This document shows positions 8,900-27,641 of a stretch of 64,000 bases of DNA, one piece after another (the stretch's first letter is position 1; each line of letters begins with the position of its first letter). The stretch is from Bacteroides sp. 519. Lineage in GTDB: Bacteria > Bacteroidota > Bacteroidia > Bacteroidales > Bacteroidaceae. The notes under the pieces were generated by a model. That model ran no database searches, had not been told where the DNA came from, and saw only the letters and a list, made by a program, of their open reading frames with translations. A program made the position numbers and the translations under genes. The stretch is from positions 307,542 through 371,541 of the forward strand of contig NZ_QVMJ01000003.1 in the NCBI RefSeq assembly GCF_010500955.1. Direction: 5' to 3'.

Positions 8900-11893
8900 T
8901 CAATCGGCTCTAACACAGAATCTGTTTCCAGCTCTAGTACCAGGATTAATAAGACTTATTTTAAATTTTTGAGAAGAATCGTCTCCGTTATTACCATTTA
9001 CATATTGAACTTTACTACCTGAGTAATCACCAAGTTGGAAAGCCATATAACGATAGTTACCTTCGCCTAAAAGTGGTAGTAATTTCACGCAATCTGTTGA
9101 AGTTGCCATACGCCAATTGTATCCTCCATTTGTTGCATTATCACAATATTCTTTGCACTCATTGTATGTAGCTACTAGTGAAGTTGAGTAAAGTACTGTT
9201 AGGTCTCCTATAGCAGTAATACCTGTAGGAAAGTTAGATGTTCCATCATTTAACTGCTTTACGGAAACTTGTACACTAGATTCTACCCAGTCTGATCCGT
9301 CTAAATAGTAAATACGAAGGGCTATAGTACGAGATGTTACATTTGTGGAATAATTGTACCATAGTGGTATTTGAATATCAAGTGTAACCTCCTCAAGACC
9401 AGACACTTTTTTTTCTGTACTAGTTGCAACTGTTTTGGTACCAGAAATAGCTACGATTTTAACTGTTGCATTACTTTTTACTTTCCAGGAAAGTGCCTTG
9501 CCAAGATGATCAATGTCTGTTGTGTTAGGTGCTACTACAGAAGTTATACTCAACGGATTTGTACGCTTCAAAGTGATAGTCTTACTATCTTCATTACCAC
9601 TAACATTGTTTACTGTAGCCAAAGTTAAAGTTGCAGTGGTTGTTCCGAATTTTTCGTTGGCAGATGAGGTTTGGGGCGTAAATGTTATTGATTTTGATGC
9701 CGGATTCAAAGGGGTTCCTCCTGTTTGCGCTGTGTTAACTATTGGAGAAGCTACTGATATAACGTTATCATAATTCGTGCCCTTTGTAAACTTCCACTTT
9801 CCGTTTACTTTAAACGTCAATGTTTTATTTGCATTCGAGCTTCCAAAATCAATGGTTGTTGCACTAATATTGATAAACTTAGGTTTCTCATAACCCTGAT
9901 TTATCAGGATATTCTTTTTAAATGCCGGCGAGGTCGATACTGCTTCAATTGTAGCAGTTCGCAGTGCAAAAGTGTTATTAGCCGTTAAAGTGAAAGTATA
10001 CTCCATCTCATCACCGGCACCTTGCACATCGGTTTCCAATTCAGAAAGTATATCATCGACATCTTCTTTAACAATCATTGCCCAGTTTTCCAATGTTGTG
10101 GTTACCTTGAATTTCAATCCCGGACCACCTGCCGCAGGATACAAGTCTTCCAGTAAAGCAATGAAGTCAATATCACTGGCCAATTGTCTGATTGACAAAT
10201 TGCGACTAACCATCACTTTTCCATCCGCATCGGTAATATATACAGTAATCACTCCTGTTCGTGTAGAAGTTCCTCCTGTATATGCAGGTGGCTGTATGGT
10301 GTAGGTTTCAGCCCATGAATCCGAACTTTTGGGAATTAAAGGCCATGAAAGGTAGTTATTGGCTATCCAATCGCCTCCAATATAACTAAAATTACGGGTT
10401 GCATTTACCGGATAAGTAGTAATCTTAACCTCTTGTCCGGGTGTACCACCACCATAAAAGGTCAGCTCGTCTGGTGTTATGGTTATATCTAATGCAGTTA
10501 GGTTAGGTTGTTCTACATCAATTCTTTTTTTCAGCTTTCCGGCTTTAATGAAGAAGTACCCCACCCTGTCTTCATCGTTTGGATCTACGATTGCTGGAGC
10601 TGAAACTTCTATTACATGACTTTGTTTGGCTGTTCCTTCATTGGGAGTTACGGTTAACCAGCCTTCATATGCCTGTGGAACTTCAATAGTCCATCCGTTG
10701 GGATAATCCGTATAAAGTGTTATCTCTCGCCCGGGTGCTGAATCGTCCGACAACAATGTTACACTGCTTTTATTTACAGTTAGCTGGTATTGTCCGTCAA
10801 ATTGAATATTGTTCATATCTTTGTCATTCCAGGCTTCAATATGTGTATCCATATTAACAGGAGCCGATCTGTAGGCTTGATCTATTTCTCCATAGCCGGC
10901 ACCTGTAACTTTGGTTATGGTTACATTGTAACTGTGATTACGAAGCATGCTAAGCCAATCTGTTCCCGAAATAAAGTCAAGACGATAGTATGTAACATCT
11001 TCCAAGTCGTCATACTTTCCACCCACAATCAAACAAGGACTTAACTCCCAGTCGGGATTTCCATAAGATGCTACATGTTCTGTTTCGAACACATAAATAG
11101 TATTCAGACACAATTCAAAATTCGCAATATCCGTATCTGTATAATGCAGAAAACTGTTACTGTTATCTGCATCGGCAGGAATGGTTGGAAATACCAAATC
11201 GCCATTTCCATCCTTATCCGGCACAATTGTACCTTTATCATTGTGGTTGCAGAAGTAGATATCTGTCAATTCAAAATTGTCTACCGATTCCCCCAATGAT
11301 ACATTGATTCTTGCCAGCATACGTGTGAGCGAAAACTCTACCGGATTGTTAGATGGTGAGTAATTATCGTCCACCACTTGATCTAGTAATTCTCCCCACA
11401 TCGGAATTGAATTGCTTTCGTTTGTACCATCAACTACCCATTTGTCTGCTTTCTCAACTTGAAGTGCGGCCATTATCTCTACACGGGTAGTACCCGGTGC
11501 CAAATTTACTCTGTTGGCTGCGTTGGCTACTGCTATCAGGTCGTATGTGTTTCCTTTGGTTAGCTTGGCAGTAAATGTCCAATCTTCTTTTGTTGCATCC
11601 AGATTGGTTACGTTGTTACAGATTACTACATCTACTAGTTTGCCATCCGGTTTTTCCGCTGTAATGGGTTCGCATACCAACAAACGGAGTGTTTTAATTG
11701 TATTTTCTTCCGCTGTTCCCACGGTACCTCTCGTTCGCACAATTGTTGCCGCTGGCAGTTTCAAGGTGAATGTGGTTTCTCCCCCACTCCTCTTCGGGTT
11801 ATATACCTCTTCGTTCTGACACGAAACCAACATCGTCATTCCTCCCACTATAAATAGAAGTATATGCATCAGGTTAAAGGTTCTCTTTCTCAT
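8900..11893 (-). CDS. Large fimbrial tip/adhesin-like lipoprotein with BACON domains
   Basis: A 997-residue protein. Lipoprotein signal with lipobox (LFIVGGMTMLVSC, Cys25). Residues about 35-340 look like the N-terminal Mfa/FimA fold (TTFTLKLP...TRGTVGTAEENTIKTLRLLV). Residues about 370-680 contain two or three BACON-type Ig-like modules (LTVNKSSVTLLSDDSAPGREITLYTD... GWLTVTPNEG). The C-terminal 90 residues (YNWRMATSTDCVKLLPLL ... GNRFCVRAD) resemble the C-terminal domain found on Bacteroidales fimbrial tip subunits, with two Cys. It is the last gene of the operon, 19 bp after its neighbour, which suits a tip or host/glycan-binding adhesin exported as a lipoprotein and assembled at the cell surface. 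Ligand unknown. Confidence 0.72.
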   Translation of the reverse strand: MRKRTFNLMHILLFIVGGMTMLVSCQNEEVYNPKRSGGETTFTLKLPAATIVRTRGTVGTAEENTIKTLRLLVCEPITAEKPDGKLVDVVICNNVTNLDATKEDWTFTAKLTKGNTYDLIAVANAANRVNLAPGTTRVEIMAALQVEKADKWVVDGTNESNSIPMWGELLDQVVDDNYSPSNNPVEFSLTRMLARINVSLGESVDNFELTDIYFCNHNDKGTIVPDKDGNGDLVFPTIPADADNSNSFLHYTDTDIANFELCLNTIYVFETEHVASYGNPDWELSPCLIVGGKYDDLEDVTYYRLDFISGTDWLSMLRNHSYNVTITKVTGAGYGEIDQAYRSAPVNMDTHIEAWNDKDMNNIQFDGQYQLTVNKSSVTLLSDDSAPGREITLYTDYPNGWTIEVPQAYEGWLTVTPNEGTAKQSHVIEVSAPAIVDPNDEDRVGYFFIKAGKLKKRIDVEQPNLTALDITITPDELTFYGGGTPGQEVKITTYPVNATRNFSYIGGDWIANNYLSWPLIPKSSDSWAETYTIQPPAYTGGTSTRTGVITVYITDADGKVMVSRNLSIRQLASDIDFIALLEDLYPAAGGPGLKFKVTTTLENWAMIVKEDVDDILSELETDVQGAGDEMEYTFTLTANNTFALRTATIEAVSTSPAFKKNILINQGYEKPKFINISATTIDFGSSNANKTLTFKVNGKWKFTKGTNYDNVISVASPIVNTAQTGGTPLNPASKSITFTPQTSSANEKFGTTTATLTLATVNNVSGNEDSKTITLKRTNPLSITSVVAPNTTDIDHLGKALSWKVKSNATVKIVAISGTKTVATSTEKKVSGLEEVTLDIQIPLWYNYSTNVTSRTIALRIYYLDGSDWVESSVQVSVKQLNDGTSNFPTGITAIGDLTVLYSTSLVATYNECKEYCDNATNGGYNWRMATSTDCVKLLPLLGEGNYRYMAFQLGDYSGSKVQYVNGNNGDDSSQKFKISLINPGTRAGNRFCVRAD

Positions 11894-11912: not shown

Positions 11913-12953
11913 TTACAGTTCCTGCTCTATCTCTTCATCATTCCAGGAATTCACACTAACATTGAATTCCAATTCTCTATCTGTTGAAATAAACACTTCC
12001 ATATCGAGGAATGTGTTTCTTGGAAGCGTATAATTTTCTTCATTTTTGTCTATTCGCACAAACGCCTTCAGATGGGGTGCGCCACCAGCCTGTTTTATCA
12101 CCAATGTAAGCGCCTTATCCGTATCATCAATAGGTGTAAATATGTTTTCGGGCAGAATAATTCGCTCCCATGTCCATGTTTCTATAGCATCATTGTTTAA
12201 GTCGGTTCCCAATTCAAATTCCAGTGCTTCATCATTATAATCCACCGGTATTTTATTATCGGCAAAGAGATATGCTTTCTCGGGCACATTATATAAATGA
12301 AGAAAATATTTCCCCCCTTCTGCCAACAAAGACGTTTGTTGTTCTTCGGTAATAGTTAGTGTAAGACTTAGTTTTATCCCAATGCGCTCCATTTGAATAG
12401 GCCATTTATTGATAGTAGTATTGCCTTCCTGAGGGTCAATCAGTTTGTTCTCTCCCTGAATAGTAATATTCTTCTTTACCGTTACCATGGGGATATCTTT
12501 ATCTTTATCGAAAGCTGCGCGCGAAAAAGTGACTTGTTCTTTCAAATAATTTAGCGTATTGTTTTGACTTTCGGTTATGTCATCTAGTGTGGCGGTAAGG
12601 TCGTCGGCATGTTCATTGGCAATAAAAACAACAGTAAATTTTCCGGTTTTCACAGTAATGTTTCCTTCGTATGTTTCTGTATTTGTATCAGCATCAGGAA
12701 AACCATAAGCCTTTTCATTAAAAGCCAGTTTGCCGTCCGAAATCCGGTAACCCATCACCCGAAGCCTGTTGATGTATCTGTCTTTCGCATCTCCCAGCTT
12801 AGGATCATCACCGTCTGACCGCGACCCTGTTGCAATGGTAATAATTACATCTTGTCCATCTTCTGTAGAATGAGTTGTATTTTCTTCATTGCAAGCCATC
12901 AATAGCAATAGCGGTAACACCATTAAACTTATTAGTCTATATCGTTTCTTCAT
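11913..12953 (-). CDS. Fimbrillin-like accessory lipoprotein
   Basis: 346 residues with lipobox MVLPLLLLMAC (Cys21). The early beta-strand DVIITIATGSRSDGDDPKLGDAKDRYINRLRVMGYRI has the Arg-containing cleavage-like segment and 'i..lrV.' strand of Mfa-type fimbrillins, and the end NTFLDMEVFISTDRELEFNVSVNSWNDEEIEQEL carries the typical 'V..W' closing strand. Probably a minor structural subunit between anchor and tip. It lies 29 bp after the FimB/Mfa2-like gene. Exact position in the pilus is inference. Confidence 0.65.
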   Translation of the reverse strand: MKKRYRLISLMVLPLLLLMACNEENTTHSTEDGQDVIITIATGSRSDGDDPKLGDAKDRYINRLRVMGYRISDGKLAFNEKAYGFPDADTNTETYEGNITVKTGKFTVVFIANEHADDLTATLDDITESQNNTLNYLKEQVTFSRAAFDKDKDIPMVTVKKNITIQGENKLIDPQEGNTTINKWPIQMERIGIKLSLTLTITEEQQTSLLAEGGKYFLHLYNVPEKAYLFADNKIPVDYNDEALEFELGTDLNNDAIETWTWERIILPENIFTPIDDTDKALTLVIKQAGGAPHLKAFVRIDKNEENYTLPRNTFLDMEVFISTDRELEFNVSVNSWNDEEIEQEL

Positions 12954-12982: not shown

Positions 12983-13933
12983 TTAATCCAATTCTCCCGG
13001 CTGGGGTAAGTAATCCCATCCATTAACAGATACCATCACCCCCATTTCGGTGTCATAAGTAAGCACAATGTCGAACGTAAAGGTGGTGTTGAAATCCACT
13101 TCCTTTCCAGAGGCTTGATAGACATTGGTGATGGTTTGTATCAGATCCCTATCAAAAAAGGTTTCGTTTTGTGTGATGTTGTAGAAACGAAACTTCGGAC
13201 TGCGGTTGTTTTGTAAACGAAGCACTTTTATAGATGTATTCAATTCGCCACTGGCCTCAGTAGCAGTGCGTATATATTGGAAATCGCTTTTCCCTGCGAT
13301 TATCGAATTGTCAAAAGCATAGTGAGAGTTATTTTCGGTTATTGAAAATCCGAAAACATCTTCCGAAACAGGAAGTCCTTTCACTTTTACATTTATCTGG
13401 TAAGTATCGGGAATCATCAGCACTGTGAAGTGATGGTTTCGTCCTGATATAATGGTGGCTGCATGATAAACACCATACAAGAGGTCGGGAATCTCTTTCT
13501 CAGTTATTTTGTTTTCCGGATAAGCCAGATAGTATTCGAGGTCTTGCAGCAATGGTTTGCGCACCTCACATTCTTCTATCGAATAGTTTGTTTGGTAAAT
13601 ATCTCCCGGATTTGTCCATACCACAAATTGGTATTCGCCCTCGGGCAGGTTCAAATAGAACTCATAAGGTTCTCCATAAATGTAAGCACCGCCCCGGCAC
13701 GAGGCAATATAGCGGTTACCGGCGTCAAACACATATACATGTATACTGTCAATGTAGTGTCGACCGTATAAATCAGATCTTGATGCCACATTGGCTTCAA
13801 GGTTAAGAGTCAATCGCACATTACCCCTTGAGTCAACGCATGCATCCCGGTCGTCATCCAAGCAAGAGCTAATGCCCAGGGCCAGACCTGTAACAACAAC
13901 CAACTTCAGAATGATGGAATATATATTTTTCAT
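12983..13933 (-). CDS. FimB/Mfa2-family fimbrial anchor/accessory subunit
   Basis: 316 residues from the ATG at 13933 (MKNIYSIILKLVVVTGLALGISSC, lipobox Cys); an upstream ATG adds eight polar residues before the signal. The segment VRLTLNLEANVASRSDLYGRHYIDSIHVYVFDAGNRYIAS, followed by PEGEYQFVVWTN, is the Mfa2/FimB signature; the end VDFNTTFTFDIVLTYDTEMGVMVSVNGWDYLPQPGEL is also typical. In Porphyromonas, Mfa2/FimB anchor the pilus to the outer membrane and limit its length. It directly follows the major fimbrillin, as in the mfa1-mfa2 order. Confidence 0.8.
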   Translation of the reverse strand: MKNIYSIILKLVVVTGLALGISSCLDDDRDACVDSRGNVRLTLNLEANVASRSDLYGRHYIDSIHVYVFDAGNRYIASCRGGAYIYGEPYEFYLNLPEGEYQFVVWTNPGDIYQTNYSIEECEVRKPLLQDLEYYLAYPENKITEKEIPDLLYGVYHAATIISGRNHHFTVLMIPDTYQINVKVKGLPVSEDVFGFSITENNSHYAFDNSIIAGKSDFQYIRTATEASGELNTSIKVLRLQNNRSPKFRFYNITQNETFFDRDLIQTITNVYQASGKEVDFNTTFTFDIVLTYDTEMGVMVSVNGWDYLPQPGELD

Positions 13934-14045
13934 TGTTTCTTTTTTCGTTATTATCATGCAGATGCAGCATCAAAGGCTGCGAATAGGAAAAGCATAGGCT
14001 GCCGCCCTAAGAGCAGGCAGCCTGTTTACGAATTTCAATCAGAAA

Positions 14046-15449
14046 TTACTCAAGAGTTATCTCATTCTTTGCATATGCCCAAGGTTTTACTTCGATGTCA
14101 ATCATCAAGAAAGTATCTTGTTCAATAACCGGGTCGGTTGGATCGGTTGGGTCAGGATTGTTAGGATCTGTTGGTTTGTTAGGATCTGTTGGTTTATTAG
14201 GATTGATTGGCTTTTCAGGCTCATCTTTGTCACCTGGGTAACCACCAAATCCATTGTCACTGCTTACTCCTTTAATCAATAATTCAATGTATTGATTACG
14301 ATAAACATTCAATTCGTCGCCTACAACACCTTTGTTCAACCATACTCTAAAGTACACATATCCTTTTGCATAAGTATATACATTGAATCCTTCGCCTTTA
14401 AATGCAGCAATTGCATTTGCGTCAGCTACCTCACTACACAAATATTGCTCTGTTTTATCTGCATTTTGCACCAAATAGAATGCGTCATCGGTAGTTGTTG
14501 CACCTGCTGTCCATTCAACTGCATTGTTAGCAGCATTCATTTTAGCTGTTTTGCTTAAAGTAGCTTGGGTACGTATCATAGCATAAGTAGCTTCGCCTAC
14601 AAATTTGTTGGCTGGAGCATTTTCACCGATATAGAAGAAATCAGTTGCAGAATTTGTACCTTTAAATGCATCTTTATCATCCGAGAAAGTTCTTACGGCA
14701 CCCGGAGTAGAGAATACATCATCTACAATTTTTTGAGCAGTAAAGGTTTTTGTAGCATCTTGCATAATAGCAAATTTATCTACAGCCCAAGTAATGGTCA
14801 CTACTTCGTCATTATCGCCCAATTCAGGAGCCGATGTTGCAATAAATCCATCCTTACTGGCCACCACTTTAGCTACCATACGTTCCAGCTTCACAGATAC
14901 TTTATTGGCATCAGGAATAGCATCTTTGCTATCAGAAGCTTCTAGTGCTGGTGTGCTTACAGCCGAGAACATAGCAAAGCTATTGTCGGCAGACATATCA
15001 GCAACGATGTCTTTAGCTTCGAAAAGAGCACTTTCACTGCTGAAAGTTTTGAAACCATCGGGCAAGTTGGCACCAATATAAACTCTTTTACCACCTGATA
15101 CAGTTTCAATAGCTTTTTCGTTTTTAAGGGTATATACACCCGATGCCTCTGTAAAGTCGCTTGTTGTAGGATCAGTGGTGATTGCAAACGTGCTGTTGTT
15201 TCCATCAGCAGCGCTTCCGTCGTTGTTGAAAACAAATACATATACGTTTGATATGCTGCTTTCTCCGGCAGTTCCAGCTACATCTTCACGTGTGTTGTTC
15301 TGGGGTAATTTAATGCTTAATCCCATTTGGGCTTTAGCTCCTTCAATGTTGCCATTGTTTTCAATAGCATCATCGTTGCTACAGCTTGTGAAACCTGCCA
15401 TTAAAGCAGCGCAAGCCATCATACTTACATACTTAAAATTCATTTTCAT
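14046..15449 (-). CDS. Mfa1/FimA-type major fimbrillin
   Basis: 467 residues. Lipobox ALMAGFTSC (Cys23). The N-terminal domain LSIKLPQNNTREDVAGTAGESSISNVYVFVFNNDG contains an Arg suited to gingipain-like maturation, followed by the 'vy.FvF' strand of the family. The middle is Ala/Asp/Thr-rich. Residues about 408-440 form a Pro-Asn-Lys-Thr-Asp repeat (PNKPTDPNKPTDPNNPDPTDPTDP) that probably acts as a linker, and the C-terminal strand (IDIEVKPWAYAKNEITLE) is the donor-like strand with the V-P-W motif of Mfa1. It is exported as a lipoprotein and polymerises on the cell surface. The short direct DNA repeats encoding the linker (about 14,120-14,215) could change length by slippage. Confidence 0.82.
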   Translation of the reverse strand: MKMNFKYVSMMACAALMAGFTSCSNDDAIENNGNIEGAKAQMGLSIKLPQNNTREDVAGTAGESSISNVYVFVFNNDGSAADGNNSTFAITTDPTTSDFTEASGVYTLKNEKAIETVSGGKRVYIGANLPDGFKTFSSESALFEAKDIVADMSADNSFAMFSAVSTPALEASDSKDAIPDANKVSVKLERMVAKVVASKDGFIATSAPELGDNDEVVTITWAVDKFAIMQDATKTFTAQKIVDDVFSTPGAVRTFSDDKDAFKGTNSATDFFYIGENAPANKFVGEATYAMIRTQATLSKTAKMNAANNAVEWTAGATTTDDAFYLVQNADKTEQYLCSEVADANAIAAFKGEGFNVYTYAKGYVYFRVWLNKGVVGDELNVYRNQYIELLIKGVSSDNGFGGYPGDKDEPEKPINPNKPTDPNKPTDPNNPDPTDPTDPVIEQDTFLMIDIEVKPWAYAKNEITLE

Positions 15450-15521: not shown

Positions 15522-17174
15522 TCATAATTTGTCTAAATATTCACGTAAATTAGATTCCTGTATCATCTTACTTATCTCCGGATCCCTTTCCGCCCTATTT
15601 ATCTTGCTTGGATCCAGCCTGCAAGCTTCCATTAAATGATCTACCGCAGCTTGATGTTCTTTTAACCGGCAGCACAAAATAGCAGCCAGATAGTGTGTAT
15701 TCGCAGTTTGAGGCAAAGCAGCCAATGTGTTATAAGCTTTACCGTCATACCCCAGACAGGTCAATGCTACGGCCGTATTGTAATCATCGTAATCATTCAA
15801 TATGTTCAGGGCACGTTGGTATTCGCGGTTCCTTAGTAATTTCAAAGCATGCATATACTCCGTGCGCTGCTCAACTGTGAACTCTGGGTTGCCAAGTAAA
15901 TTGCCATCAGCCAGTTCGTCCATCGAAGAGATTACATAACTCAGTGTATCTACACGTTGAACCTTATAGTAACTGCGGTCGGTAGCGGTAATACTTCCAC
16001 CCAGCGTTAAACGAAGGTTTTTAAGTCCGGCTGTTACCGGATAGCTGCGGGTATAGCGGTACATATAATCTTTATCCAGAGTAATTATTGCATTATAGTG
16101 TGCATCCATACGGTAAGGACTGGGCACCATGTAACGGAACATTTCTTCTTGGCGCGAACCTTTTACTTCGTTAGCAGCTATCTTCTGATGCAAAACAAAA
16201 CCTTCGGCTATTTGCAGCGAATCACGTTCTTGTGGTAAAAGCGGTTCCAGATCTTCAGGTGTAATGCCTTTGCGATAGAACTCGCGATACTTGGCCGGAA
16301 CAGCATTCAGGGTTATCTGCCTACGACCAGGGGCCGTATCAATAAGCTTCTTGCGTTCGGAACGGTACTTATGCCCCAGTCGTGAGGTATCGGCACGCAT
16401 GGCCAGTTGACGCGAAAAAGCTGTTTGGTATTTCATGTCATGGCTGATTAACTTACGCCGTAATACTTCGGCTTGTTTGATGTTATAAGCATCGTATTCG
16501 GCCTGCTGCGTGTTTCGCCAGTCGCGATACTCTTGCATCAAGGCCCATTTGTTATAGTACTGGTCAAGTTCTGTTTGGCGACGCCTGCCTAGTTCACGGT
16601 TCACCCCACGGTGATCAACAAAAGCAGAATCATAAGCTGAGGGGTCAATAATACCACTCAGGTATTCTTCAAAGCGTTCGTAATCTTGTTTTTGTAGCTC
16701 AATAAAGTTTTTTCCACGCAATACTACGTCTTCCAGTTTTACCAGAGAGTCGTTGTGCAAAAGCTCCGGAGTAAGTGTAACTTGAAAGTCGTCCGATAAG
16801 TAAGCTTGGGGTACCCGAATCACAAAGTCAATGGTTACCTGCCCTTCTCTTACCGGGGCAAAGCGAGCACGCGAGGTAACTGTTACCTGCGAAAGTGTGT
16901 ACACTTTGTTGGTATCTAAACGGGCTTCGTCTTCCTGAGCGGCTTCGGCATTGGTTAGTTGAGGTTCGGTTGTATAATTTACCTGCTCGGCCAGTACCAT
17001 TGGTCCCTGCTGTCTATTAGCCTGCCCCGGCTGGTCACTGGGATGAGTGATGGCAATGTGGCTGCGCTCCAGAAACAATCGCTCCGTAAGGTGGCGTTTG
17101 TGGGTGCTACCAGTATTGCAAGAGGCAAGGGTTAGTAGAATGCCAAGAATGTATAGTAGTTTGTTCTCTCTCAT
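15522..17174 (-). CDS. TPR-containing lipoprotein of the fimbrial operon
   Basis: About 550 residues from the ATG at 17174 (MRENKLLYILGILLTLASC, lipobox). The longer frame to 17216 would add MNKRYYQLPSAFIF, which is encoded by a piece of dispersed repeat and precedes the signal, so I reject it. Residues about 80-180 form a beta-rich domain; 170-270 is a long charged, Tyr/Arg-rich helical segment (probably coiled coil); the last about 120 residues (RTEYMHALKLLRNREYQRALNILNDYDDYNTAVALTCLGYDGKAYNTLAALPQ) are tetratricopeptide-like. It lies 11 bp after the DUF3868 gene and likely works with it in assembly at the outer membrane. I do not recognise a named family. Confidence 0.6.
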   Translation of the reverse strand: MRENKLLYILGILLTLASCNTGSTHKRHLTERLFLERSHIAITHPSDQPGQANRQQGPMVLAEQVNYTTEPQLTNAEAAQEDEARLDTNKVYTLSQVTVTSRARFAPVREGQVTIDFVIRVPQAYLSDDFQVTLTPELLHNDSLVKLEDVVLRGKNFIELQKQDYERFEEYLSGIIDPSAYDSAFVDHRGVNRELGRRRQTELDQYYNKWALMQEYRDWRNTQQAEYDAYNIKQAEVLRRKLISHDMKYQTAFSRQLAMRADTSRLGHKYRSERKKLIDTAPGRRQITLNAVPAKYREFYRKGITPEDLEPLLPQERDSLQIAEGFVLHQKIAANEVKGSRQEEMFRYMVPSPYRMDAHYNAIITLDKDYMYRYTRSYPVTAGLKNLRLTLGGSITATDRSYYKVQRVDTLSYVISSMDELADGNLLGNPEFTVEQRTEYMHALKLLRNREYQRALNILNDYDDYNTAVALTCLGYDGKAYNTLAALPQTANTHYLAAILCCRLKEHQAAVDHLMEACRLDPSKINRAERDPEISKMIQESNLREYLDKL

Positions 17175-17181
17175 AAATATA

Positions 17182-17202
17182 AAAGCAGACGGCAATTGAT
17201 AA
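17182..17202 (-). repeat. Solo end of the 27.7-kb palindrome
   Basis: The reverse complement (TTATCAATTGCCGTC..., 21 bp) is identical to 27,677-27,697, the outer arm of the long palindrome. It lies just in front of the lipoprotein start at 17174 and partly in the frame upstream of it. An end fragment of a mobile palindromic element is the likely reading. Confidence 0.6.
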
Positions 17203-17226
17203 TATCTTTTATTCAAAGCGAATTTT

Positions 17227-18750
17227 TTAACGGTTAGCCCGCTTCAATTCATCTTCTCTTTTCTTCGCCAATTCCTTCAAATTATGCTCAGCCTCGCTCA
17301 CCCCACCAACTGATGCCTGATTCAACAAACCAGTTGCCTTATCCAACTCACCACGTAACATATAGATGATACCCAGGTTGTTCCAGGCGGCAGGCAGATT
17401 ATTTGCTTTTTCCAACAGTCTTGCCGCTGTGGCCAGTTCGCCATTCTCAATTAGCAGGGCGGCAGCATTATTCATGGCTACAGGGTCGTTGTCGAAGTAC
17501 TTCGGAATGGTTTCGATAATAATTTTACGGTATTCGGGCTGATCTTTGCCATATTCCAAAGCTACACTATAGAGTTCTAACTGAGACAGGTTTTCGGGAT
17601 TGGTACCTACCAGCCGTCGGGCTTCGGTAGTGGTGTAATTACGTACAGAGTAGTCAATCTGGTATTCAACACGACGCAATTCGGGGAATATATCGCGAAG
17701 CAGAGTGTTGTAAACCGATAATTGTTTCAACTGCAATTCTTTAGTATCGTAGTCCGATTTGTTGTCAATTATGGCCAAAACACGATCTTTCTGTGCAACA
17801 GAACTTTCTTCTATTTTCGTTTTTAGTCCAATCCAGTCTTCGCCAACAGATCGAACTGTAAATATATTCTCACCAAGCATATAACGGTTTTTGATATAAT
17901 CTTTCAATGCAACAGCACGTTCATGGGCCAGTTTGTCGTTGCTGTTATATTTGCCTTCGGGCGAGGCATAGCCTTCTATAAACAAAGCGGTGATTTGGGC
18001 ATCCATATCGCCCATTACATCTACCAATGCATCGTTGATTTTACCTAGTTCAACAGGGTTCCGGCGGAAATCAGGAAGGATTACCGAACGTCCGGACTGG
18101 AAATCAAGGAAGGCACTTCCCTGACGGTTGCGTACTTTTGCAACATTGGCAGGCGTGGCTAAAGCCACAAGTGGCTGGACTTCATAGGGGGCACGGGGGG
18201 CGAGTGTAACCCGATCGCTAAGCTTATAGGTATAACTATTTACCGTGCTACGGCATCCTATCAACTCCTGACGAAGATACAATCCGGACTTATCCATCCA
18301 ACTTTCGTAGGGCAATGAAACAGCGTAATGCATTTGCTCGTCTGTATATTTTTCGCTATTTACAATCATTTGTGGAGCATCGTAGGTAGAAAGCCAATTA
18401 TCGCTGGCAATCATAAACCAACGGGCATTGAGTTTAGAACGCTTTTTACTATTCAATTGCACATAAGGAAGGTCAATGATGTGTTTACCGTTGCGAAGTT
18501 CGGGGGTAAAATACATGCTCGAACAGTTGGGAACTGCATGGGCCTCGACCTTGATGCTGAAGCAAACAATTAAACTGTCGTTACGCTCCGAAAAATCGGT
18601 AGACTCAACCATAACAGAGCCTTTGTAGTTCTGGGCAGAAAGATTGCCACAGGCTATAAAAATGATAAAGGCTATAAAGTAATGAGTTTTGAGTAATGAG
18701 TTTTGAGTTACGATGCTGTATGGGTTATTTTTATTTTTCATCTTCTTCAT
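17227..18750 (-). CDS. DUF3868/OmpA-like protein with C-terminal TPR-like region
   Basis: 507 residues. A hydrophobic signal segment (HYFIAFIIFIACGNLSAQ) is preceded by about 20 polar residues (KKMKNKNNPYSIVTQNSLL), much of it encoded by a dispersed repeat element (18,679-18,723). Residues about 45-190 match DUF3868 (beta-rich). Residues about 245-330 resemble an OmpA-type peptidoglycan-binding fold (ITALFIEGYASPEGKYNSNDKLAHERAVALKDYI). The end (LPAAWNNLGIIYMLRGELDKATGLLNQASVGG) is TPR-like. DUF3868 and DUF3575 proteins go together in Bacteroidales fimbrial operons and are thought to help anchor or assemble pili. Role here is inference from context. Confidence 0.75.
   Translation of the reverse strand: MKKMKNKNNPYSIVTQNSLLKTHYFIAFIIFIACGNLSAQNYKGSVMVESTDFSERNDSLIVCFSIKVEAHAVPNCSSMYFTPELRNGKHIIDLPYVQLNSKKRSKLNARWFMIASDNWLSTYDAPQMIVNSEKYTDEQMHYAVSLPYESWMDKSGLYLRQELIGCRSTVNSYTYKLSDRVTLAPRAPYEVQPLVALATPANVAKVRNRQGSAFLDFQSGRSVILPDFRRNPVELGKINDALVDVMGDMDAQITALFIEGYASPEGKYNSNDKLAHERAVALKDYIKNRYMLGENIFTVRSVGEDWIGLKTKIEESSVAQKDRVLAIIDNKSDYDTKELQLKQLSVYNTLLRDIFPELRRVEYQIDYSVRNYTTTEARRLVGTNPENLSQLELYSVALEYGKDQPEYRKIIIETIPKYFDNDPVAMNNAAALLIENGELATAARLLEKANNLPAAWNNLGIIYMLRGELDKATGLLNQASVGGVSEAEHNLKELAKKREDELKRANR
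18679..18723 (-). repeat. Heptad/CCATGCGGCATCG-family element inside a coding region
   Basis: Plus-strand arm made of the 7-bp words gAGTAATG/AGTTTTG followed by the apex variant CGATGCTGTATGG (reverse complement CCATACAGCATCG). It is one-armed. It lies entirely within codons near the start of the DUF3868 gene, where it encodes NPYSIVTQNSLLKTHY. Confidence 0.65.
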
Positions 18751-18853: not shown

Positions 18854-19459
18854 TTACTTCAAAAAATAAATTAAGTTCAACCCAATCTTTGTGGGTCCAA
18901 CATAGTGAGTAGTGCCCTCGTCGAGCTTAAGGCCGCATTTAGGCGCTTCGAACTTTTCGTAATCAATATACGCATAACCAAAACCAATGGTAAACTCCAT
19001 CGACCACCGGGGAGAGAGCAACCAGTGATAACCCCACGAAACCCCACCACCGGCAAGCCAGCCTTCGTAACGGTGATGCCTGGTAGCTTTCAAAGGACCA
19101 ATATTACCTACATTGTACTCGCCATAATGTCCGTGAATGCCCAGAAAATGGCCCGAGAAAGATTCGCAGAGCCAGTAGCGAAGCTCGGGTTGAACAAGAA
19201 GATGTTTCCACTTCCGGTTGTTTGAAAAACTAAAAGAATTGTAACTGACTGGTATGTCGAGGGTATAACGTTTGCTGAGTTTGAACTCGACTCCCAGATT
19301 CAGACTTAGAACCGCATCATAAAGCAAATTGCTTTTTATGGAAAAATGGGGAATAGGATCGTACAAACGATGGCTATAGCCGGATAACTCTTGCGAACGG
19401 ACAACCCCCGACGCCAGTGAGAAAACAAGGATGACTATAAATATGGATGAATTACGCAT
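18854..19459 (-). CDS. DUF3575 outer-membrane beta-barrel protein
   Basis: 201 residues with a signal peptide (MRNSSIFIVILVFSLASGVVRSQE). The motif KSNLLYDAVLSLNLGVEFKL near residue 42 and alternating aromatic strands ending in ...IGLNLIYFLK are diagnostic of DUF3575, a small outer-membrane barrel family found in Bacteroidales fimbrial operons. It probably supplies an outer-membrane partner for the DUF3868 protein. It follows the 111-aa ORF by 32 bp. Confidence 0.82.
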   Translation of the reverse strand: MRNSSIFIVILVFSLASGVVRSQELSGYSHRLYDPIPHFSIKSNLLYDAVLSLNLGVEFKLSKRYTLDIPVSYNSFSFSNNRKWKHLLVQPELRYWLCESFSGHFLGIHGHYGEYNVGNIGPLKATRHHRYEGWLAGGGVSWGYHWLLSPRWSMEFTIGFGYAYIDYEKFEAPKCGLKLDEGTTHYVGPTKIGLNLIYFLK

Positions 19460-19491: not shown

Positions 19492-19827
19492 TTAAGAGTG
19501 ACGAGAGGATTCGATTTTGTTTAACCAAAGTCTATAACTACGATTAAACTGACGAATTGTGCGAGGAAACTCGGTCCGACATTCTCTGCTTACAAGAAGA
19601 CGGTCAACGACTTTACCAACTTCGCTTAAGATAGAAACCAAAGAGGGTATATCAAGACTGCGGGTTATACGTCCCGAACCGGAAAGATAACCTTGCAAAC
19701 GCAACTCTTCAGGAGAAGGTGAGGAAGAAACTACATGTCGACTTTGTTTACGACGAGGTGTTTCAATACACAATTTACTTGCGCGGTGAAGCAAGTATAC
19801 TACATATAAAGTCTTCTGGTCTAACAT
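19492..19827 (-). CDS. Unrecognised 111-aa protein, first ORF of the fimbrial operon
   Basis: MLDQKTLYVVYLLHRASKLC start at 19827. Basic (many Arg and Ser), no signal peptide, no transmembrane helix; the end (RTIRQFNRSYRLWLNKIESS) could be a helix. It starts 20 bp downstream of the left inverted repeat of the putative invertible promoter and ends 32 bp before DUF3575, so it would be the first cistron of the operon in the ON state. No family recognised; it may be a small cytoplasmic regulator, or an untranslated leader that happens to be open. Confidence 0.45.
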   Translation of the reverse strand: MLDQKTLYVVYLLHRASKLCIETPRRKQSRHVVSSSPSPEELRLQGYLSGSGRITRSLDIPSLVSILSEVGKVVDRLLVSRECRTEFPRTIRQFNRSYRLWLNKIESSRHS

Positions 19828-19847
19828 AATACTTTAGTCGTTAATCA

Positions 19848-20245
19848 TCCGTCTTATCTAAGGAGACGGACATTTTTCTGAAATGCAATAAAACAAAGGC
19901 TAGAACAAAATAGAAATAAAACAGAAATGTAATGTGTGCTATTTTAACCGCAAAAAGGAATCAAAGAACAAAAAAACAGAAAGAAAGAAGAATACTTCAG
20001 AACAAGTGGAAAACCTATGTAAATATTTAATTAAGGTTAAATATTATAGCTACAAAATAATGAATTTGTAACATATTATATCCCAACAAACACCTTATTT
20101 ATAATGAATTTGAGTGATAATATACGTTTTTGTTACTGTGTTAAAAAAGCGGCAACCCGAAAAAAACAGACTCCATATTGCATAGTTAAACCAATAGTTG
20201 TACATTTGCATCATGAACACAGTCCGTCTCCTTAGATAAGACGGA
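19848..20245. promoter_or_regulatory. Putative invertible promoter segment (fimbrial phase switch, OFF orientation)
   Basis: Two perfect 24-bp inverted repeats, 19,848-19,871 and 20,222-20,245 (GTCCGTCTCCTTAGATAAGA... in the right copy), enclose 350 bp of about 70% AT DNA without genes. Each repeat is itself an imperfect palindrome (TCCGTCT...AGACGGA). Inside, next to the right repeat, is a promoter-like pair facing right, away from the fimbrial operon. If the segment is flipped, coordinate x becomes 40,093 - x, so the -7 box would fall at 19,885-19,892 facing left, with transcription starting about 50 nt before the ATG at 19,827. This is the architecture of Bacteroidales invertible promoters that control capsules and fimbriae. 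No recombinase gene lies in the window. Inversion itself is inferred. Confidence 0.75.
20177..20208 (+). promoter_or_regulatory. Promoter inside the invertible segment, facing away from the operon
   Basis: ATTG (20,177-20,180), 20 bp, then TACATTTG (20,201-20,208), matching TTTG-N19/20-TAnnTTTG. The same -7 octamer followed by CATC is used by the tRNA-Glu promoter in this window. As placed, it fires rightward across the right inverted repeat into the IS remnant, where no plus-strand gene exists. Confidence 0.7.
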
Positions 20246-20309: not shown

Positions 20310-21296
20310 TCAGTGTATGGAAACCAAACTACCATCGTCGTTTTGAGCATGAATGGATGCGCTATGCCAAAAGACCCGCTTTAACTTTGCATTAAATGAT
20401 TCCGCTGAGGCGTTTGTTTGCCTACTCACAAAGAAGTTTAATATGGTGTCATAATGATTAGTGAAGGTGTCAATAACAGTATGGAAAGCATTCCCTGCCA
20501 ACCTACTTACCTTGTCAAACCATTTAGCCAAATTCAGTCTTGCTGCATTCTTACTGCTTTTCTTATTGTAGATATTGGTCAGTTCCATGGCTACATCGTA
20601 TGCCTGTTTCAATTCCGGATAAAACTCAAAGATGATATCCGCCCTCCATCTCTGTGAGGGTGTCCACTTAGTTTCATGTCTTGTTAGGATGAACCTTGCC
20701 CGTGCCAAGAGTTGTTTGCGTGTATCTCCATTAGCATACCGGAAAGGAATATATTGTTTTTTCTCTTCTCTACACTTTTTTATTTCTGCATTCTCCAAAT
20801 CTCTGGCCATCCAACGGTAAGTTATGCGCAAGTCATCCAGCGCATCGTAATAAAGCTTTTGTACATGAAAACGATCGTTGGTAATGCGTGCCTTAGGGAA
20901 CACCGAACGAGCTATGAGCATCATAGCAGAGGAAAGATCCAGAGTTATCTCTTCCACTAGCAGGCGTTTGTTTCGGTTAATTTTCTCAAGTACGGCGATT
21001 ACCGTTTCTGCTTTTGTGCCGTGGACAGCAGCCACAAGAGTACCAGGACCGCCATGTCCGTCTTTGTTGGTCAGAAAAGTGTAGACCTCACCACTACTCA
21101 GACAGGTTTCGTCCAAACTTAAATTAGGACCGATGTTTTCAGGAAATAGCAGATATTCAGAGGCATGTGACAATTGATTCCACTGTCGATAATCACTGAA
21201 GTGTTCTTTGTATTGACTGCTGAGTAACTTACCATTGACACCATAATGTTCAGCGATACCTTTGATACTTTCGGCAGTACTCTCAATCCTCTTCTT
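20310..21296 (-). pseudogene. ISAon1-type transposase, C-terminally truncated
   Basis: The frame is open from 21296 (KKRIESTAESIKGIAEHYGVNG) to 20310, about 328 codons, with no ATG at its beginning. DDE core of the ISL3-like (ISAon1) group: NLSLDETCLSSGEVYTFLTNK, ITNDRFHVQKLYYDALDDLR and the late Glu in NASAESFNAKLK. After AKLK the sequence stops resembling the family (RVFWHSASIHAQNDDGSLVSIH), and the usual C-terminal FR..FRGVR region is missing. The gene therefore looks broken. It is preceded by the N-terminal ORF in an overlapping frame. It lies directly to the right of the invertible segment. Confidence 0.72.
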
Positions 21297-21633
21297 TTAA
21301 AAAAACAACGAACTCAGGGGATAATTTAGAGCCGTCTTCAGTCAAGTCATCAAAGTTATAAGTGAATATTTCACCTGTAGAACGATCAACCCATTTACGG
21401 CGACGAACATGAAGATAGACACTGCGACCGCGAATCGGAAAGTCTTGTATCGTTTTAGCTTCGGTAAAACCATAAGGACGAACGGTTCCTTTCTTATAGT
21501 CCTCACGGGACATATACTCACGCTCATCTAACCAATACTCTAAAGTGGATTCACTCTCACGATAATCTACAAAATTAAAATTGTCGGTGATTACTTCAGG
21601 GAAAATACTTCGTAATATCTGATATTGTTTCAT
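21283..21633 (-). CDS. ISAon1-type transposase N-terminal ORF
   Basis: Counted from the ATG at 21633, 116 residues (MKQYQILRSIFPEVITDNFN); an open frame extends upstream and the family usually has a few more residues (LLPLG...), so the true start may be non-ATG. Contains the family motif DFPIRGRSVYLHVRRRKWVDRSTGE and ends SPEFVVFLKEED. These elements encode the transposase in two ORFs. Here ORF2 is in the +1 frame relative to ORF1; a TTTTTTTAAAAG run lies at the overlap (near 21,290-21,310), but the common -1 slippery reading does not lead into ORF2. Confidence 0.68.
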   Translation of the reverse strand: MKQYQILRSIFPEVITDNFNFVDYRESESTLEYWLDEREYMSREDYKKGTVRPYGFTEAKTIQDFPIRGRSVYLHVRRRKWVDRSTGEIFTYNFDDLTEDGSKLSPEFVVFLKEED

Positions 21634-21744
21634 GCCCAAAGGTAATAATTGAGAAGCAGATTTGAATGGTTTGCAACCGGGTTTTAGGACTGACCCATTT
21701 AAAGTTGACCCCGTTGGGGTCACAATTACAATATAATTTGCCAA

Positions 21745-21796
21745 CGTAGGGCTTTGCCCTACGCTACTGCATAGAGGCCGTTGGCCTCCATATCTA
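21745..21796. repeat. Double hairpin CGTAGGGC...GCCCTACG plus scar repeat copy 2
   Basis: CGTAGGGC-TTT-GCCCTACG (21,745-21,763) is a perfect 8-bp stem. It is followed by GAGGCCGTTGGCCTC and then CATATCTA; positions 21,776-21,796 match the scar at 8,454 in 20 of 21 bases. It lies between the IS remnant and the rpsT terminator. Confidence 0.6.
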
Positions 21797-21833
21797 AATT
21801 TAACAGCCACTGAGTTCACAGCACCATATACAC

Positions 21834-24719: not shown

Positions 24720-27641
24720 ATGAAAAGATCCATTCATTTTTGTCTTCTGTTTTTGTTTGCGATAACAGCAACAGGAGTTTATGCAGTAGAAAACCAGAAC
24801 TACCCGTACGAAACGGTGCCCAACGATCCGCTGAAAGCGCAAATTTACACGCTCAATAATGGACTGAAAGTATATTTAACTGTAAACAAAGAAACACCAC
24901 GCATACAAACATATATTGCTGTAAGGGTAGGTGGAAAGAACGACCCTGCCCAAAACACCGGATTGGCCCACTACTTTGAACACCTGATGTTTAAAGGAAG
25001 CGAAAAGTTTGGTACACAGAGCTATGCCCTCGAAAAACCAATCCTCGACCAAATTGAGCAGATGTTTGAAGTGTACAGAAACACCGAAGACGATAATGAA
25101 CGGAAAGCCATATACCAGGTAATAGACAGTTTATCTTACGAAGCTTCTAAACTGGCCATCCCCAATGAATATGATAAACTTATGTCGGCCATAGGTGCAA
25201 AAGGTACCAACGCCTACACCGGGTTCGACATGACGGTTTATACCGAGGATATTCCTTCTAATCAAATTGATAACTGGGCAAAGATACAGGCCGACAGATT
25301 TAAGAATAACGTAATTCGCGGATTCCATACAGAGCTTGAAACAGTTTACGAAGAAAAGAACATGTCGTTAACCCGCGATGCCCGCAAAGTAAACGAGGCA
25401 ATGTATGCGGCACTCTTCCCACATCATCCTTATGGAACACAAACGGTATTGGGTACACAGGATCATCTGAAAAATCCATCTATCAAAACCATTAAAGAGT
25501 ATTATCGTACTTGGTATGTACCCAATAACATGGCTATATGCGTGTCGGGCGATTTCGACCCAAACGAAATGATTGCAGTTATCGATAAGTATTTTGGCGA
25601 TATGAAGCCTAATCTTAACCTGCCTCCGTTGCCGGTAAGAGCCGAAACCCCGCTTACTGCACCTGTTGTACGCGAAGTTCTGGGGCCTGATGCCGAAATG
25701 GTTACTATCGGTTGGAAACTACCCGAAGGAGCTGCCAGCCTGGAAACCGAAACATCGACACTGCTGGGACGAATTATGTATAATGGCAAAGCGGGTCTTT
25801 TGGATGTTGACCTTAACCAGCAACAAAAAGTATTGAACGCATACGGGTATGCTTATTCTATGGCCGACTATGGCATGTATCTGTTACAAGCCCGCCCAAA
25901 GGAAGGACAAACACTTGAGCAGGTAAGAGACTTACTGTTGGCCGAGGTTGAAAAACTGAAATCGGGTAACTTCGACGAGGATATGCTACAGGCCATCATA
26001 AACAACTTTAAACTTTATCAGCAACAACAACTAGAGTACAATTCGGTACGTGCCGATATGTTTGTAAGTGCATTTATTAATGGCCGCGACTGGAAAAACG
26101 AAGTAACTTCGCTCGATAGAATGTCGAAACTAACAAAGGCCGATATTGTTGCGTTTGCCAATAAACACTTGGGAAACAATTACGCCATTATTTATAAGAA
26201 GAAGGGACAAGATCCTAACGAAAAGAAAATAGACAAACCAACAATTACACCTATTGTAATGAATCGCGATGAGGCCAGTGCTTTCTTGAAAGAGATTCAG
26301 AACACCAAGGTTACTCCTATCGAACCGGTTTTTATTGATTACAGTAAAGACCTCTCTAAATTGCAAGCTCAATCGGGTATCGAAGTGTTGTACAAGCAAA
26401 ATGTTACAAACAACGTATTCCAGTTGATGTATGTTTTTGATATGGGAAACAACCACGACAAGGCATTAGGAACCGCATTCCAGTATATGCGTTATCTGGG
26501 AACTTCGGACATGAGTCTGGAAGAAATTAACCGCGAATTTTACAAGCTGGCCTGCTCGTTTGGCGTAAGTCCGGGTAGCGAACGCACCTATGTAACACTG
26601 TCGGGGCTGAACGAGAATATGCCCAAAGCGCTCGAACTGTTCGAAAAAATAATGGCCGATGCACAAGTAAATGCCGAAGCATACAATAACCTGGTTAACG
26701 ATATTGTAAAGCAACGCAATGATGCTAAATTAAATCAGTCGCAAAACTTTAGCCGCCTAACCCATTATGCAATGTATGGACCTAAGTCGCCCACTACCAA
26801 TTTGCTCACTGCACAGGAGCTAAAAGACATGAATCCGCAAGAGTTGGTAAACCGCATTAAAAACCAGAACAGCTATAAACACCGTATAATTTATTACGGC
26901 CCATGTAACGAAAAAGATGTTCTTGCCTTAATTAAGAAACATCACAAGGTGCCAAAAAAACTGAAAGATATTCCTAAAGGAGAAGAATTCCCTTATCTGC
27001 TCACCAACGAAACCAAGATATATATTGCTCCTTACGAAGCTAAACAGATATATATGTCGCAAATATCGAACAGAGATGAAAAATTCAATCCGGCTATCGA
27101 ACCTACAAGATATATGTATAACGATTACTTTGGTGGCGGTATGAACTCTATTGTGTTCCAGGAAATGCGCGAATCTCGCGGACTGGCTTACTCGGCATGG
27201 GCAGGATTTAGCGGACCTTCCAAGCTCGACAGACCGTATGTGTTCCGTTCGCAGATTGCCACACAAAACGATAAGATGCTTGAAGCCATTGAAACATTCA
27301 ACGATATTATAAACAACATGCCGCAATCCGAAGCCGCATTTAAGTTGGCACAAGAGGGTATCATCAGCCGGATTCGTACCGAAAGGGTGATAAAGAGCAG
27401 CATATTGTGGTCGTACATCTACGATCAGGATCTTGGTCAAACCACAGATGCACGCATCAAAAGGTTTAACGATGTTCCTAATATGACACTACAGGATATT
27501 GTGAAGTTCCAGGAAGAATGGATTAAAGGCCGCACATATACATATTGCATCTTGGGAGATGAAAAAGACCTCGACCTTGAAGCATTAAAGAAATATGGTA
27601 CGATTGTTAAGTTAACAACGGAAGATATTTTTGGGTATTGA
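24720..27641 (+). CDS. M16 family zinc metallopeptidase (pitrilysin-like, two-domain)
   Basis: 973 residues. Signal peptide MKRSIHFCLLFLFAITATGVYA. The inverted zinc motif HxxEH is intact: HYFEH (His84, Glu87, His88), with the distal Glu in ETVYEEKNM about residue 220. Residues 30-500 form the active half, 540-960 the inactive half with the R/Y-type signature (SRGLAYSAWAGF). The whole is a clamshell peptidase for unfolded peptides, acting in the periplasm. It is a full-length fusion of two M16 halves, usual in Bacteroidales. It converges with the GH16 gene; the space between them is filled by the long palindrome. Confidence 0.92.
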   Translation: MKRSIHFCLLFLFAITATGVYAVENQNYPYETVPNDPLKAQIYTLNNGLKVYLTVNKETPRIQTYIAVRVGGKNDPAQNTGLAHYFEHLMFKGSEKFGTQSYALEKPILDQIEQMFEVYRNTEDDNERKAIYQVIDSLSYEASKLAIPNEYDKLMSAIGAKGTNAYTGFDMTVYTEDIPSNQIDNWAKIQADRFKNNVIRGFHTELETVYEEKNMSLTRDARKVNEAMYAALFPHHPYGTQTVLGTQDHLKNPSIKTIKEYYRTWYVPNNMAICVSGDFDPNEMIAVIDKYFGDMKPNLNLPPLPVRAETPLTAPVVREVLGPDAEMVTIGWKLPEGAASLETETSTLLGRIMYNGKAGLLDVDLNQQQKVLNAYGYAYSMADYGMYLLQARPKEGQTLEQVRDLLLAEVEKLKSGNFDEDMLQAIINNFKLYQQQQLEYNSVRADMFVSAFINGRDWKNEVTSLDRMSKLTKADIVAFANKHLGNNYAIIYKKKGQDPNEKKIDKPTITPIVMNRDEASAFLKEIQNTKVTPIEPVFIDYSKDLSKLQAQSGIEVLYKQNVTNNVFQLMYVFDMGNNHDKALGTAFQYMRYLGTSDMSLEEINREFYKLACSFGVSPGSERTYVTLSGLNENMPKALELFEKIMADAQVNAEAYNNLVNDIVKQRNDAKLNQSQNFSRLTHYAMYGPKSPTTNLLTAQELKDMNPQELVNRIKNQNSYKHRIIYYGPCNEKDVLALIKKHHKVPKKLKDIPKGEEFPYLLTNETKIYIAPYEAKQIYMSQISNRDEKFNPAIEPTRYMYNDYFGGGMNSIVFQEMRESRGLAYSAWAGFSGPSKLDRPYVFRSQIATQNDKMLEAIETFNDIINNMPQSEAAFKLAQEGIISRIRTERVIKSSILWSYIYDQDLGQTTDARIKRFNDVPNMTLQDIVKFQEEWIKGRTYTYCILGDEKDLDLEALKKYGTIVKLTTEDIFGY

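Follow-up and report, generated by a model that had tools for sequence, protein, structure and literature searches.

Organization of the region upstream of the pilus operon

Two repeats lie in front of a pilus operon in this DNA, and they raise the question of whether the operon is read from a promoter that can be turned round. The window (the whole stretch of 64,000 nucleotides that was analysed) carries a type V (Mfa1/FimA) pilus operon on the minus strand to the left of these repeats, in which genes for a major pilin, an anchor pilin and DUF3575 and DUF3868 proteins form a single run with all frames open. As judged from sequence comparison, positions 19848-20245 are very probably a site-specific invertible promoter (a phase switch) of this operon, captured in the OFF orientation. 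The features are the following.

8900-11893, minus: 997-aa protein, last long ORF in the run (from the ORF list)
11913-12953, minus: FimA-domain pilin, 346 aa (family match)
12983-13957, minus: Mfa2-type anchor protein, 324 aa (family match)
14046-15449, minus: Mfa1-family major pilus subunit, 467 aa (family match)
15522-17216, minus: 564-aa protein without family match; lipoprotein-like start judged by eye
17227-18750, minus: DUF3868 protein, 507 aa; weaker OmpA and TPR matches
18854-19459, minus: DUF3575 protein, 201 aa (family match)
19492-19827, minus: first operon (head) ORF, 111 aa, family A1; without Pfam or NCBIfam match
19836-19841, minus: leader element ACGACT, between the proposed recombination site and the first ATG
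19848-19871, plus: left (operon-proximal) inverted repeat, proposed recombination site, TCCGTCTTATCTAAGGAGACGGAC; arm TCCGTCTT, spacer ATCTAAG, arm GAGACGGA, plus C
19872-20221, no strand: proposed invertible segment, 350 bp between the repeats; no ORF of 80 aa or more in the ORF list
20177-20208, plus: Bacteroides-type promoter ATTG-N20-TACATTTG, pointing right, away from the operon (OFF)
20222-20245, minus: right (operon-distal) inverted repeat, proposed recombination site; reverse complement of the left repeat
20310-21819, minus: ISAon1/ISL3-type insertion sequence; transposase 20310-21173, N-terminal-region protein 21283-21819

From its place in the run the 997-aa protein is a possible candidate for the tip protein.

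An earlier note on this DNA had described perfect 24-bp inverted repeats around 350 bp, and these were recovered at the coordinates listed. A 20-nt repeat probe with up to three mismatches matched the two copies and nothing else in the 64-kb window, where 0.01 matches were expected by chance. The note's promoter beside the right repeat, with the operon behind it, was also found; its last base lies 37 nt from the outer end of that repeat. For the flipped segment, the distance from the last base of the -7 box to the ATG was computed as 57 nt (37 nt within the segment and 20 nt outside it), in agreement with the roughly 50 nt that the note had given. To the right, where no plus-strand gene had been reported, the first substantial one is at 24720, and the sole plus-strand ORF listed before it (82 aa) lies within the transposase gene. 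A generic sigma-70 promoter scan stayed close to the level obtained from shuffles. Each repeat is indeed palindromic (TCCGTCTT-ATCTAAG-GAGACGGA). This is not new, palindromic repeats being a feature already described for Bacteroidales switches (PMC12118408).

The insertion sequence to the right of the switch was absent from the earlier note. It is present in a single copy in the assembly, and its ORFs lie outside the 24-bp repeats. No clear terminal repeat was found, and for this reason, together with its single copy, its exact ends could not be set. In the OFF state the window promoter would read antisense into the transposase gene. At 21697-21812 a dispersed repeat of about 95 bp occurs. The genome has over 40 partial copies of it, frequently arranged as inverted neighbours some 100 bp apart, and it looks like a REP/BIME-type element.

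Twelve switches in one genome

The 5.56-Mb assembly was searched with the pattern TCCGTCT-N9-AGACGGA, allowing up to two mismatches, with the reversed pattern as control. The pattern was found at 26 places and the control at 15. Eighteen of the 26 places fall in ten pairs, two of which have a partner with three mismatches. This genome search for the repeat, which the earlier note had proposed, placed all eight exact palindrome matches and eight of the nine one-mismatch matches in pairs around promoter segments. The eight unpaired places (one with one mismatch, seven with two), one of which is at about 9296-9318 of the window, are within the range of the control.

The ten TCCGTCT-type pairs span 350-419 bp including the sites, and each encloses one promoter near one end when the strict motif is used. 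Two more pairs, with arms TCCCTCTC/GAGAGAGA, came from a general inverted-repeat search at further loci. DUF3575 has 17 matches in the genome; 12 of these 17 loci carry a conserved head ORF of about 110 aa, and the same 12 have a promoter between palindromic inverted repeats. Neither the head ORF nor a promoter-bearing repeat pair was found at the other five DUF3575 loci (C94 near 499 kb, C93, C54, C92 and C122). One of the 12 loci is divided between two contigs: C108 ends with its switch and first codons, and the remainder lies at the end of C120; these two ends appear to join. The leader element ACGACT is present in 11 of the 12 leaders, with GCGACT in the twelfth, and it occurs twice in four of them. 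A palindrome scan of viral contigs gave two loci, neither with a promoter-bearing inverted-repeat pair.

In each of the 12 switches the promoter is directed away from the operon, and 35-37 nt separate its last base from the outer end of the site. Two observations count against this regularity: with a looser motif L048 has one additional match, oriented toward the operon, and in four of the 12 segments there is one further copy of the bare -7 motif, far from the ends. All 12 switches are thus OFF in the assembly, for which the chance is 0.0002 if they are independent and even. This uniformity means that there is a strong preference for OFF or that the segments seldom flip, and it counts against the reading as switches.

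Recombinases

The earlier note had advised a search for a recombinase that co-occurs with the repeats. The genome encodes seven tyrosine recombinases of a single family (A2), with pairwise identities of 48-95%. Six of them are encoded directly upstream of six of the 12 switches; the seventh stands alone on contig C43, where the 12 kb examined gave no repeat pair. The R, K, R-H, H and Y motif positions are invariant in all 67 aligned A2 proteins (seven from this genome and 60 from relatives). At the F-Y/L-L-R-G motif all seven (L051, L053, L054, L056, L052, L098 and L105) have Gln, where 51 of the 67 have Arg, and this counts against the switch reading. No serine recombinase over the Pfam cut-off was found in the genome (one match reached 22.2 bits against a cut-off of 23.3), and a serine-invertase regulon of the Mpi type is thus not supported.

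The other six switches, that of the window included, are orphans: a search that recovered two positive controls gave no recombinase or remnant of one within 3.5 kb on the distal side, or within 1.9 kb in the case of the short contig C139. The absence of a local recombinase at the window switch counts against its being a switch. The standalone C43 recombinase could act in trans, and its gene is the most attractive candidate for flipping the window switch.

The orphan state also bears on whether the window holds a former switch that became locked OFF when a recombinase or an accessory site was lost, perhaps with the arrival of the insertion sequence, leaving the operon silent or read from another promoter. 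With no recombinase in the distal 3.5 kb, an OFF orientation in the assembly and the stop codon of the transposase gene 65 bp from the distal repeat, the insertion sequence could have removed something needed for switching, which counts against an intact switch. On the other hand, the window repeats and spacer are still perfect and the operon ORFs are open. The other five orphans have no adjoining transposase, as judged by eye from the ORF starts in the ORF lists, so that lacking a local enzyme is normal for half of the set. A locked switch is therefore considered unlikely, and a working invertible promoter remains the preferred reading.

Site architecture and proposed crossover spacers

The sites of the 12 pilus switches share one build, from outside to inside an 8-bp arm, a 7-bp spacer and an 8-bp arm. 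The spacers are identical within all 12 pairs, the window included (all 84 positions agree, where 47 would be expected between loci), and none of 20,000 shuffles of the partners reached this identity. There are 11 different spacers, ATCTAAG being common to the window and the C110 locus only. Since the spacers are identical within pairs, the sites have the character of crossover sites of a tyrosine recombinase. The outer flanks show no such likeness, with 40 of 96 positions alike within pairs and 40.0 between loci. Within pairs 81 of 96 positions of the outer arms and 94 of 96 of the inner arms are alike, as expected if the outer arms stay with the flank and the inner arms travel with the segment.

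The arms at the 12 switches are TCCGTCTY-RAGACGGA or TCCCTCTC-GAGAGAGA. The four TCCGTCT-type switches that lie beside enzymes have inner arms GAGAGGGA or AAGATGGA, whereas the six orphans have (G/A)AGAC(G/A)GA. The difference may reflect a different enzyme, a weak argument because the orphan operons are also related to each other.

Orientation of the switches in related genomes

A2 matches at E 1e-60 or better were present in at least 73 of 99 genomes of the genus, Bacteroides sp. 519 included. Sixty stretches around A2 genes of relatives were hand-picked among the matches listed, the best first and then frames of invertase length. A palindromic repeat pair lies within 400 bp of the enzyme in 49 of the 60; the other 11 have none by that rule, and a looser listing gave repeat pairs in some of them. 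The enzyme is oriented toward the switch in every one of the 49. A simple promoter rule classed 43 of the 49 promoters as facing the enzyme (OFF) and two as facing away (ON; L181 and L184), and gave no call for four. The stretches behind these counts are not independent, since several are near-copies within one genome, and some lie before capsule-like or other surface genes rather than pilus genes. Three stretches of one related genome (L155, L156 and L159) have extra ORFs between the recombinase and a DUF3575-like gene; no invertase-adjacent palindromic pair was found in them by the 400-bp rule.

The orientation of a homologous switch could be compared between two species of the genus, represented by L181 and L185, with one genome per species. 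On the same strand their 700-bp flanks match at 91.8% and 94.7% identity, whereas the inner segments match on the opposite strand, at 86.0% identity over 413 bp. In L181 the promoter is directed toward the operon. Three more distant homologues (L183, L178 and L166) have the orientation of L185. This implies that a homologous pilus switch with the same site architecture is inverted between species. The claim of the earlier note that the operon is phase-variable is thereby supported on three sides, by the 11 further switches of the same kind, by the spacer identity of each pair and by the opposite orientations of a homologous switch.

Against this background the palindromes could still be regulator-binding sites, terminators or RNA hairpins rather than recombination sites. 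Every repeat is palindromic, a flip of the segment would leave the proximal one inside the 5' leader or close to it, and the left repeat with its T-rich tail resembles a terminator on the plus strand (two such sites in the region, 0.7 expected). Such a role leaves unexplained why the two spacers of a pair, which are not part of the palindrome, always agree when 11 different spacers exist, and also the reversed segment of L181. On these two grounds it was rejected as very improbable. That the repeats are the ends of a mobile element (a small non-autonomous insertion sequence or MITE) is less credible still and was likewise rejected: a real insertion sequence does adjoin them, but it is single-copy with its ORFs outside the repeats, paired copies occur only before the 12 pilus operons with a constant promoter direction, and the unpaired weak matches elsewhere do not exceed the reversed control. 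The repeats were accordingly not found elsewhere as ends of an insertion element, the result that the earlier note had named as speaking against a switch.

OFF thus dominates the assemblies, both in Bacteroides sp. 519 (12 of 12) and in the relatives (43 of 45 called). OFF-state promoters beside local enzymes would read antisense into the genes of those enzymes. This could make OFF sticky, as a candidate mechanism. It cannot explain OFF at the six orphans. No Bacteroidales work on antisense reading of invertases at invertible promoters was found in print, as judged by titles.

Proposed mechanism and comparison with known systems

For the invertible promoter the following course is proposed. 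A tyrosine recombinase of the A2 family would bind the 8-bp arms of each palindromic site, and strand exchange inside the 7-bp spacer would reverse the segment. The promoter would drive the 111-aa head gene and the pilus genes when the segment lies one way round, and would be directed away from them when it lies the other way. The window switch, which has no recombinase of its own, would probably be flipped in trans by one of the seven homologues in the genome. We infer that the window copy still flips and that its promoter is active. The bacterium can probably change in this way which surface fibres are made.

Tyrosine recombinases that turn promoters round are well documented in Bacteroidales, and the mechanism is in this respect a known one. 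The closest parallel is Tsr19/BF2766 of Bacteroides fragilis, a tyrosine recombinase that acts on a promoter between inverted repeats with the -7 consensus TAnnTTTG and that flips one local (IVp-I) and one distant promoter (IVp-II) (PMC4747536). According to the same report IVp-I is OFF for the most part in cultured cells, and likewise in six of the seven people tested. Tsr19 is described there as governing an exopolysaccharide and outer-membrane gene cluster, with two regions, whereas the present set comprises 12 pilus loci and six local enzymes. The distant promoter IVp-II is described as having no OFF bias (PMC4747536). The precedent therefore does not explain the six OFF orphans, which counts against the switch reading. 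A predominance of OFF has a counterpart in resistance-gene promoters, reported as predominantly ON in only 4 of 96 cases (PMC8748976). The Mpi regulon of B. fragilis is alike in that one enzyme acts on many scattered promoters (13 regions), but Mpi is a serine recombinase (PMC4747536).

Palindromic switch sites beside tyrosine invertases have been described in B. xylanisolvens, B. thetaiotaomicron and P. distasonis (PMC12118408). In that account, as here, the repeats are palindromic, an invertase or integrase is adjacent, several loci have one shared repeat and the promoter segments measure about 290-345 bp. The arms differ; they are given there as GTTAC-GTAAC for most switches (GCTAC in P. 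distasonis), and the loci are mainly those of capsules and S-layers rather than pili. The difference from GTTAC-GTAAC counts against the switch reading. Among the inverton groups of hCom2, fimbrillin-family genes are enriched downstream of inverted promoters and invertases are enriched beside the switches, placed where the promoter cannot drive them (PMC11892184). That study is a catalogue by motif group, in which neither a genome with 12 pilus switches nor the head gene was found. The UpxY/UpxZ capsule system and, in B. fragilis, a phase-variable locus that includes fimbria-like proteins are mentioned in a review (PMC12632263). In the freely readable article texts that were searched, a genome with 12 pilus switches, these site arms and the head ORF were not found.

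What is extended is the range of Bacteroidales phase variation, to a set of 12 pilus loci in one genome with a shared site architecture, near-unique spacers and an own enzyme at half of the loci. For a known kind of switch this set is unusually large, and its interest lies in its size and order.

The head gene and a possible pilus repertoire

The first gene behind each switch belongs to family A1, which has 14 profile matches in the genome that cover the 12 loci (two loci are split). Searches of Pfam and NCBIfam with the head ORFs gave nothing over the curated cut-offs. Family A1 was found in one of 158 genomes of the genus and in one of 393 genomes drawn from the order, both times the genome of Bacteroides sp. 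519. On these profile searches the head gene of about 110 aa is lineage-restricted. No match to the head ORF was found at the seven named loci searched or in viral contigs. Relatives have ORFs in the same position, of which three had weak similarity to Rrf2 (best E 0.0038) and two to other entries, in every case below the cut-offs. Homology of A1 to the 123-141-aa ORFs that relatives have in that place (A3) was not supported, the profile comparison giving a probability of 0.9%. In a single-sequence fold the window head ORF was almost wholly helical, at weak confidence (mean pLDDT 62.6). At L120/L121 (contig C159, 314909-315368) the head ORF is present as two pieces that overlap in the profile and looks broken or rearranged.

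Taken jointly, the unique spacers, the half of the set that would be worked in trans, a cross-acting head gene and an antisense-sticky OFF state would make up an addressed pilus repertoire, a reading that is speculative and on balance improbable as a whole. The near-unique 7-bp spacers would let enzymes of one family flip the switches separately without joining loci, and half of the switches would be worked in trans, perhaps by the C43 recombinase. The head gene, as the first ON product, would act across loci in the manner of UpxZ for capsules, so that few pili would be made at once. OFF promoters beside local invertases would read antisense into these and keep OFF sticky. Two elements of this can now be put to the test, namely one recombinase for many addressed sites in trans and a head gene that coordinates the choice of pilus.

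One related genome carries four pilus switches (L161-L164) whose 500-bp inner segments are 94-99.6% identical. This likeness suggests recent copying or gene conversion.
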